A stretch of 64,000 nucleotides of DNA from positions 1-64,000 of the forward strand of contig NZ_JAIRBA010000009.1 of NCBI RefSeq assembly GCF_022008365.1. Direction: 5' to 3'. A program made the translations under genes and the position numbers. The notes below the pieces were generated by a model. It saw nothing but the letters and a program-made list of their open reading frames with translations, did no database searches and was not told the DNA's origin. This DNA comes from Aequorivita vitellina. Its GTDB lineage: Bacteria; Bacteroidota; Bacteroidia; Flavobacteriales; Flavobacteriaceae. Below are positions 50,486 to 52,884 of the stretch, piece after piece. Each line of letters opens with the position of its first letter. Position 1 is the first letter of the stretch.

Positions 50486-52315
50486 TTGAAAATAATAGCA
50501 ATGATTCCCGCGCGTTACGGTGCATCGCGTTTTCCTGGAAAATTGATGCAAGATTTAGCAGGCAAACCTGTAATAGTACGTACTTACGAAGCTGCAAAAG
50601 CCACCAATCTCTTTGATGAGGTTTTTGTAGTTACTGATAGCGACATAATTTTCAAAGAAATAGAAGCCTTTGGTGGAAAGGCAATCATGAGCCAAAAAGA
50701 ACACGATTGCGGTAGCGACCGCATTGCCGAAGCCGTTGAAAACTTAGATGTAGATATAGTGGTAAACGTTCAGGGCGACGAACCATTTACCAGTAGAGAA
50801 GGACTGGAAAAAGTGTTGGCAGTGTTTAATGAACCAGATGCTGCTAAAATTGACTTAGCTTCACTAATGACCGAAATCCACGACTGGAAAGAGATTAGCG
50901 ACCCAAACTGTGTAAAGGTTATTGTAGATAAAGACAATTTTGCTCTGTATTTTTCGCGCTCGCCTATTCCATATCCGCGCGATAAAAATGTAGCACTTCA
51001 ATATTATAAACACAAAGGTATCTACGCCTTCAGAAAGCAAGCGATAATGGATTTTTACCGTTTGCCAATGCGTTCATTGGAAGCTGTAGAAAAGATTGAA
51101 TGCATCCGATATCTGGAATACGGGAAAAATATTAAAATGGTGGTATCTAACACTACAGGCGTTGAAATAGACACGCCCGAAGATCTTGCCAGAGCCAATA
51201 GATTACTAAAAGATAAGTCTGAAGATACCGTCAACAATAAGTTTCGTAATTTTCCTATGGTTCCGAAAGTGGTTTTTGGCGAAGGGTGTTTTGATCAACT
51301 GAGCACAATTCTCACTTCCCAAAAGCAGGAAAAAGCACCATTTATTTATTTGGTGGACGATACTTTTAAAAATAACACGCAATTTTTAGATAGAATTAAT
51401 CTTCGATTTAACGACAAGTTGCTATTTGTTTCGGCAGATGAAGAACCCAAAACGAGACAGGTTGATGAAATGGTTAAAAACATTAAAACCGAATTTACGT
51501 ATTTGCCATCGGGTATAATTGGCATTGGAGGAGGAACAGTAATGGATTTGGCAAAAGCGGTAGCCATTATGCTCAATAATAAAGGAAGCGCTGCAGATTA
51601 TCAAGGTTGGGATTTGGTGAAGAAAAAAGCAGTGTACCACGTAGGAATTCCAACTATTTCGGGAACAGGCGCCGAAGTTTCTCGTACAACCGTACTTACA
51701 GGCCCTGTGCGAAAACTGGGTATTAACAGCGATTTTACTCCTTTTGATCAAGTGGTTCTTGATCCGCAGCTTACCAAAGGCGTTCCAAAAAACCAGTGGT
51801 TCTTTACTGGCATGGATTGTTTTATTCACTGTGTTGAATCTTTAAATGGCACTTTTTTAAACGCTTTTAGCCAGAGTTATGGCGAAAAAGCGTACGAGCT
51901 TTGTTTAGAGATTTTTCTTGGCGATTCACTTTCTGAAGAAGAATCGCGCGCCAAACTTATGATGGCTTCGTGGCATGGTGGAATGAGTATTGCATATTCG
52001 CAAGTAGGAGTGGCGCACGCAATGAGCTATGGCCTTGGTTACGTTTTAGGAACCAAACACGGAGTAGGCAATTGTATTGTTTTTCAGCATTTAAAGGAAT
52101 TTTACCCCAAAGATGTGGCTTTGTTTGAACAAATGGTAGCCAAACACAACATTCAAATTCCGCAAGGAATATGTAAAGATCTTACTTCGGATCAAATGGA
52201 CACGATGATTACAGTAGCTTTAGGAATGGTTCCACTTTGGGAAAATGCACTTGGCACTAATTGGCAAGAGGTGATAACTCCAGAAAAACTAAAAGCGCTG
52301 TATTTAAAAATGTAG
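50486..52315 (+). CDS. kdsB: Fused CMP-Kdo synthetase / Kdo 8-oxidase-type dehydrogenase
   Basis: One frame of 609 residues joins two enzymes. Residues 1 to about 243 are KdsB ([19 protein letters not shown] start, [30 protein letters not shown]), which activates Kdo with CTP. Residues about 253-609 are an iron-dependent alcohol dehydrogenase of the KdnB type ([14 protein letters not shown], the NAD loop [15 protein letters not shown], metal ligands in [21 protein letters not shown] and GTKHGVGNC). KdnB of Shewanella oxidises C8 of Kdo on the way to 8-amino-Kdo. A short linker ([12 protein letters not shown]) joins them. The start is TTG. The aminotransferase KdnA is not in the window. Both halves look intact. 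Confidence 0.93.
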
Positions 52316-52332
52316 CAAACCCCACACGAATT

Positions 52333-52884
52333 ATGGGACTTACAAAATTTATTTTTGAAAAAGTAATGGGATGGAAAATTGAAGGTTCTTTTGACCCTAC
52401 GGTTAAGAAGGCTGTTATAATTGTTGTTCCGCATACCAGTTGGCACGATTTCTATTTGGGGTTATTTACACGACGCCTAACTAAAGTTAAAATTAATTAC
52501 ATTGCTAAAAAAGAACTTTTTGTGTGGCCTATTGGGTGGTATTTTCGATGGACTGGCGGCGTTAAATTAGATAGGACCCCCGGGCAGAATAAAGTTGAAG
52601 CAATTGCCGAGTTGTTTAATGACAAAGAAGAATTTCGATTGGCACTTTCTCCCGAAGGTACGCGTAAAAAAGTTGCAACTTGGAAGACGGGTTTTTATTA
52701 TATGGCTTTAGCAGCCAAAGTGCCTATAATTTGCGTAGCATTTAATTATGGATCAAAAAAAATAAGTATAGGCAATCCTTTTTTTCCAAGTGGAGACATT
52801 GCATCAGATATACCAAAACTTCGTTCGTTTTACAAGGGTGTTATTGGAAAAAATAAAGCGTATTCCTATGATATTGAAATGTAA
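52333..52884 (+). CDS. 1-acylglycerol-3-phosphate-type acyltransferase
   Basis: The protein (183 residues from the Met at 52333) has the PlsC-type acyltransferase motif with a His and Asp (VVPHTSWHDFYLGLF; the HxxxxD pattern is present) and later LSPEGTRKKVATWKTGFYYMA (the EGTR motif). It probably acylates a lipid or lysophospholipid at the membrane. The frame extends 24 codons further upstream into the fusion gene; the later Met gives a proper start 17 bases after the fusion stop. It follows the Kdo gene directly, so a lipid-A-related role is possible but unproven. Confidence 0.85.
   Translation: MGLTKFIFEKVMGWKIEGSFDPTVKKAVIIVVPHTSWHDFYLGLFTRRLTKVKINYIAKKELFVWPIGWYFRWTGGVKLDRTPGQNKVEAIAELFNDKEEFRLALSPEGTRKKVATWKTGFYYMALAAKVPIICVAFNYGSKKISIGNPFFPSGDIASDIPKLRSFYKGVIGKNKAYSYDIEM

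Follow-up and report, generated by a model that had tools for sequence, protein, structure and literature searches.

The sugar chain of LPS is usually anchored through Kdo. In the Shewanella pathway for its 8-amino form (8-amino-Kdo, Kdo8N), free Kdo is oxidised by KdnB and aminated by KdnA before it is activated by KdsB, and the KdnB and KdnA enzymes of S. oneidensis (PDB 5k8c and 5k8b) were reportedly described by Gattis et al. in 2013. The function of KdnB and its assignment to subfamily FeADH3 (cd08184) of the iron-containing (type III) alcohol dehydrogenases are the subject of a passage in PMC5125639, and Kdo8N is presented as a Shewanella trait in the pertinent parts of a review (PMC3210612) and of a research paper (PMC6357163). 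Extracts from two further papers mention kdnB as annotated in a Leptospira strain (PMC8510873) and an 8-amino-Kdo cytidylyltransferase as annotated in a Pseudoalteromonas strain (PMC9966250). For KdsB of A. aeolicus, D219 and D95 are named in an extract from PMC3149649 as binding the catalytic Mg. Among the matches listed from the open-licence literature, none dealt with kdnAB or Kdo8N in Bacteroidota or with a KdsB-KdnB fusion, which is weak evidence of absence. The enzymes of the pathway are already known; the fusion described here and its wide setting are new.

The locus investigated lies in the window, i.e. the whole stretch of 64,000 nucleotides that was analysed. It resembles the S. oneidensis pathway in having close KdnB and KdnA homologues by sequence and a KdnB fold, with the genes clustered with kdsB in some relatives; it differs in that KdsB and KdnB form one polypeptide, kdnA is located on another contig and the host is a flavobacterium. 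With the KdsB proteins of E. coli (3k8d) and A. aeolicus (2y6p) it shares the fold, the motif of the catalytic Asp pair and the model TIGR00466, but it carries an oxidase fused C-terminally and, unlike E. coli KdsB, has Glu instead of Gly two residues before the catalytic Asp. FeADH3 (cd08184) provides the best matches and the same conserved Asp-His-His-His set, whereas here the domain is the C-terminal half of a nucleotidyltransferase. The fusion gene quite probably encodes a bifunctional enzyme acting in the Kdo8N branch of LPS synthesis; this estimate refers to the pathway role and leaves the re-tuning of KdsB aside.

The kdsB-kdnB fusion gene

As claimed in the preliminary description, KdsB and KdnB with their key motifs were found in one frame, which is uninterrupted and contains no stop codon between its ends. 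The features of this region are as follows.

50486..52315, + strand: kdsB-kdnB fusion gene, a single open frame of 609 aa with a TTG start and a TAG stop at 52313-52315
51206..51247, + strand: inter-domain junction, residues 241-254, with low pLDDT and high amino-acid change
52333..52884, + strand: downstream gene of a PlsC-type acyltransferase (PF01553, E 3.2e-13), the in-frame ATG at 52333 being taken as its start

A PlsC-like gene, the likeness being judged by eye, followed kdnB in 11 of the 14 listed loci. The source genome (G000) comprises 3.63 Mb and is 99.79% complete. Searches at E up to 0.001 revealed no second KdnB in it and no second KdsB of strength, the one other KdsB match being weak (26.6 bits, 38%). 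Among named relatives, those closest to the KdnB half belong to Aequorivita (up to 88% identity), so that the source organism is presumably an Aequorivita or a very close neighbour of this genus.

In the structure model (mean pLDDT 79.1, pTM 0.63), pLDDT was below 50 over residues 241-258, and parts of the KdsB half were also of low confidence, so that the placement of one domain relative to the other is left unfixed by the model. The junction changed more in amino acids than either domain in all seven comparisons.

The KdsB half and residue 227

The N-terminal half is, by homology, a KdsB of the CMP-Kdo synthetase type, and CTP-dependent activation of Kdo or Kdo8N is predicted for it.

50486..51205, + strand: KdsB (CMP-Kdo synthetase-type) domain, residues 1-240, identified by PF02348, TIGR00466 and PDB KdsB chains (sequence and fold); the boundary at residue 240 is our choice
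51164..51166, + strand: codon of Glu227, two positions ahead of the catalytic Asp229, found by column comparisons; a role in Kdo8N recognition is proposed for it
51170..51172, + strand: codon of Asp229, taken from its IDTPED motif to correspond to D219, the Mg-A ligand in A. aeolicus KdsB

In Pfam, CTP_transf_3 (PF02348) covered residues 4-216 (E 1.6e-50). When the whole protein was compared with NCBIfam, it scored 198.8 bits with TIGR00466 (kdsB; cutoff 155.2) and also passed the cutoffs of the KdsB models NF003952 and NF009905; the scores for the KdsB model NF003948 (191, cutoff 281) and for NF003950 (232.6, cutoff 234) were below cutoff. Both residues of the catalytic Asp pair, D98 (QGDEP) and D229 (IDTPED), are present and nearly invariant in the alignment.

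All 80 KdsB sequences of KdnB-positive members of the family had Glu at position 227, a row counting as positive when KdnB was present in the locus, with KdnA checked for the window's genome and for G005. Among family genomes with neither kdnA nor kdnB, the best 30 of 50 genomes made loci, of which 28 were used, and L186 and L208 were dropped from this comparison for their weak KdnB matches; the 28 showed Gly in 23 and Glu in five. A further 16 such rows all had Gly, raising the totals to 39 Gly and five Glu in the 44 (28 + 16) genomes compared out of 95. Gly also occupies this position in KdsB of E. coli, Y. pestis and V. cholerae. For the class set, 39 of 50 KdnB-positive genomes outside the family were taken, 38 of them with KdsB, together with 41 KdnB-negative genomes, 35 with KdsB and 34 used; G311, whose match reached only to residue 195, was left out. 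The 38 positive genomes had Cys in 25, Glu in six, Pro in three, Ser in three and Gly in one, and the 34 negative genomes had Ser in 17, Ala in 10, Gly in five, and Pro and Asn in one each. Thus, Cys or Glu was found in 31/38 KdnB-positive vs 0/34 KdnB-negative genomes, a grouping of Glu with Cys that was chosen after the data had been seen. Two of the 38 genomes possessed a second KdsB-like copy with Ala at this position; second copies (L275, L312) were left out of the KdsB tree test and of the class-set ranking.

When alignment columns were ranked by their separation of KdnB-positive from KdnB-negative genomes, column 227 came first and column 142 second in the family set, and column 142 came first and column 227 second of 245 in the class set. 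Residue 142 of KdsB (50909-50911), which separates the two groups in both comparisons, was Glu in 31 of the 32 KdnB-positive rows outside the family that lack Glu227.

As a perfect marker, residue 227 was rejected, since exceptions occurred both ways. Five family genomes (L180, L182, L183, L187 and L188) carried the set Thr102/Lys177/Glu227 with kdnA and kdnB undetected, and seven of the 38 KdnB-positive genomes outside the family had Pro, Ser or Gly. The five Glu227 exceptions would reflect either a recent loss or another route to an amino sugar. Once relatedness was counted on the KdsB tree, in which the KdnB-positive family rows had been thinned to 26 with the window included, three independent pairs were available on well-supported branches, of which none to two agreed and none disagreed, and the association was not significant.

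The raw association suggests that KdsB may have been re-tuned for 8-amino-Kdo via residue 227, and we regard this as a good lead. In a variant of the proposed role, the KdsB half would be a general CMP-Kdo synthetase that accepts Kdo and Kdo8N alike, giving a mixed LPS and leaving co-expression as the only use of the fusion. This variant is compatible with the five genomes that have Glu227 without detected kdnAB, with the lack of significance on the tree and with the passing of the TIGR00466 cutoff, and the fusion gene, as the sole KdsB-like gene of strength in the genome, must supply any CMP-Kdo needed. It is nevertheless the less likely choice in our judgement, since Glu227, and elsewhere Cys227, track kdnB in the raw counts.

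The KdnB half and kdnA

The C-terminal half is a close relative of Shewanella KdnB, and oxidation of Kdo at C8 is predicted for it.

51248..52312, + strand: KdnB-type domain (Kdo 8-oxidase, iron-containing alcohol dehydrogenase fold), residues 255-609, identified by the match to 5k8c (E 6.6e-129) and by Foldseek
51815..51829, + strand: DxxxH half of the expected metal site, Asp444 and His448, nearly invariant in the alignment
52016..52060, + strand: rest of the expected metal site, His511 and His525, nearly invariant in the alignment
G000:C44:65477-66667, - strand: kdnA, 397 aa, on another contig than the fusion gene (5k8b, E 2.6e-154)

In Pfam, Fe-ADH covered residues 261-427 (E 6e-27) and ADH_Fe_C residues 441-542. 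Following the Asp-His-His-His motif of the iron-containing alcohol dehydrogenases, we take D444, H448, H511 and H525 to be the metal ligands. Against PDB, the KdnB half matched the S. denitrificans protein 3rf7 with E 7.5e-132 and S. oneidensis KdnB (5k8c) as listed above, the next chain following at 3.1e-26. Foldseek gave a TM-score of 0.92 by target length to both 5k8c and 3rf7.

Kdo oxidised by KdnB would require an aminotransferase, which the preliminary description had expected to be supplied elsewhere, naming the absence of kdnA from the genome as an argument against its reading. PF01041 was found at 11 places in the source genome, and two of these were compared with PDB. One is kdnA, which does lie on another contig; its protein matched S. 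oneidensis KdnA far better than the next PDB chain (1.2e-53) and was the only match to itself in the source genome at E 1e-100. The other, the DegT protein L084, was rejected as KdnA, its best match being 1o61.

Of 299 family genomes, 202 contained KdnB (E up to 1e-20), 193 KdnA (E up to 1e-100) and 291 KdsB. KdnA and KdnB occurred together in 191, KdnB only in 11 (four of them weak), KdnA only in two and neither in 95, giving a Fisher p of 1.6e-62 for their co-occurrence with relatedness ignored. In 11 loci picked for kdsB near kdnB, gene order was inspected; kdnA was situated within about 3 kb of kdnB in eight (L075, L335, L337, L338, L339, L340, L341 and L344) and was absent from the stretch in the other three (L336, L342 and L343). 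The source genome, in which kdsB and kdnB are fused and kdnA is on another contig, has relatives with all three genes clustered: L075 and L335 showed kdnA-kdsB-kdnB in a row and L339 the order kdnA-kdsB-HAD-kdnB. The stretch of L337 and L338 presumably also carries kdsA-, kdsC- and transaldolase-like genes, as named by motif.

Iron-containing alcohol dehydrogenases act on many alcohols, and given this wide range the C-terminal half could act on another substrate (CMP-Kdo or an unrelated alcohol), the link with Kdo8N then being coincidental. We hold this to be very improbable, since the KdnB match is about 100 orders of magnitude better than that of any other iron-containing alcohol dehydrogenase in PDB, kdnA co-occurs and often clusters with kdnB, and kdnB is fused to kdsB in most of the loci scored below.

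Two further observations were made on these gene sets. A HAD-type hydrolase gene encoding about 230 aa was situated between kdsB and kdnB in L053 (L053:3237-3935), to which the profile PF00702 was applied, and likewise in L060, L066, L071, L079 and L339. In L150 (G074:C53:245128-246312), the kdnA match contained one in-frame TAA; this genome carries the fused gene.

Distribution and history of the fusion

From 116 loci, 114 (window included) were scored, L044 and L076 being left out with KdsB absent from the stretch; 82 were fused and 32 split. The loci were mostly chosen as best matches to the window protein, so that the fused share is biased upward and cannot be carried over to the family as a whole. 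Of the 114 rows, 104 were different sequences. In the subset of 80 named loci, 52 were fused, 26 split and two unscored. In a tree of the 114 KdsB+KdnB rows (quick search, no bootstrap), the 82 fused rows and seven split rows formed one clade with an SH-aLRT of 97, and the fused/split label needed two changes. These are read as one origin of the fusion and one later re-splitting, although change counts alone give no direction. Several independent fusions had been expected from the differing junction lengths; this was rejected, as the tree needs only two changes. A single origin within the family, by the joining of adjacent kdsB and kdnB genes, is therefore proposed.

Both domains are under purifying selection, with dN/dS between 0.013 and 0.065 in six of 14 domain comparisons and dS saturated in the other eight; these values are rough, since dS was near saturation throughout. 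The preliminary description had also named a frame error, with a stop between the domains, as a possible objection; none was detected, and the frame was open in all 82 fused loci. An artefact of frame or assembly joining adjacent genes, for which the split neighbours of relatives might speak, can be dismissed for practical purposes in view of these 82 of 114 open fused frames, the independent assemblies that contradict it and the purifying selection.

Among the matches listed, at least 32 family genomes, of 202 KdnB-positive genomes in all, had an open frame of at least 600 aa, and the same 32 genomes with fused-size frames were obtained from the KdnB side and from the KdsB side. The fusion is not peculiar to the source organism but common to a whole clade within the family. 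In the class, KdnB was found at E 1e-60 in 53 of 345 genomes, and no fusion was seen outside the family, the frames of 50 KdnB-positive class genomes (359-430 aa) being too short. The presence of fused-size frames in only part of the KdnB-positive genomes, together with the one re-split clade, indicates that the fusion is dispensable for the pathway.

Proposed pathway and its possible spread

On the points that the analysis covered, the interpretation given in the preliminary description is supported. In the proposed role, free Kdo would first be oxidised at C8 by the C-terminal KdnB half and then aminated at this carbon by KdnA, which is encoded separately (G000:C44). The amino sugar would be activated with CTP to CMP-Kdo8N by the KdsB half at the N-terminus, which may have been re-tuned for it. 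A Kdo transferase, for which a gene was found in the source genome (PF04413, E 2.2e-44), would then place Kdo8N on lipid A. Channelling straight from KdnB to KdsB, as considered in the preliminary description, is unlikely: KdnA acts between these two steps, and a direct hand-over would skip amination; co-production or an assembly of the three enzymes is likelier. The fusion would mainly couple the amounts and the location of the first and the last enzyme. Its simplest benefit would be equal production of both, and a complex with KdnA is possible.

The pathway genes were present in about two-thirds of the related genomes covered, an indication that Kdo8N, which is known chiefly from Shewanella, may occur widely. 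In a broader reading, which we put forward as tentative and rate slightly below even chances, Kdo8N would not be special to Shewanella: in most Flavobacteriaceae, and in further Bacteroidia, it would be the usual sugar linking lipid A and core. Their KdsB proteins would have become CMP-Kdo8N synthetases by one active-site change, in which Gly, Ser or Ala gave way to Glu in one lineage and to Cys in a second, and the fusion would be one lineage's lock on this switch. The most interesting consequence is the prediction of Kdo8N synthesis in many Bacteroidota, which the fusion and residue 227 make directly testable. If it is true, a large proportion of the Bacteroidota, marine and other, would bear an amino group at the Kdo position, with a bearing on the charge of the outer membrane, on chemical tests for Kdo and on the recognition of LPS.

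Published LPS structures of two flavobacteria speak in part against such a wide spread. The backbone of Arenibacter certesii, solved in 2005, is not named as a case of Kdo8N in the pertinent parts of PMC3210612 and PMC4052302, and for Capnocytophaga canimorsus one Kdo is given in a passage of PMC3342949. Either species could, however, lack kdnAB, since 95 of the 299 family genomes are without both genes. Kdo-8-phosphate has been studied in a flavobacterium, the amino form being unmentioned in the relevant extract of that paper (PMC9478572).

Mobile elements were also searched with KdnB. No match was obtained on plasmids at E 1e-60. A viral contig of 98 kb from IMG/VR (L210:3986-8712) contained a KdnB-like iron-containing alcohol dehydrogenase with 40% identity. 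It is followed by what we take, from their motifs, to be a DegT aminotransferase-like protein of 399 aa and a PseG-like protein of 335 aa, and this set is perhaps a sugar-amination cassette carried by a phage.
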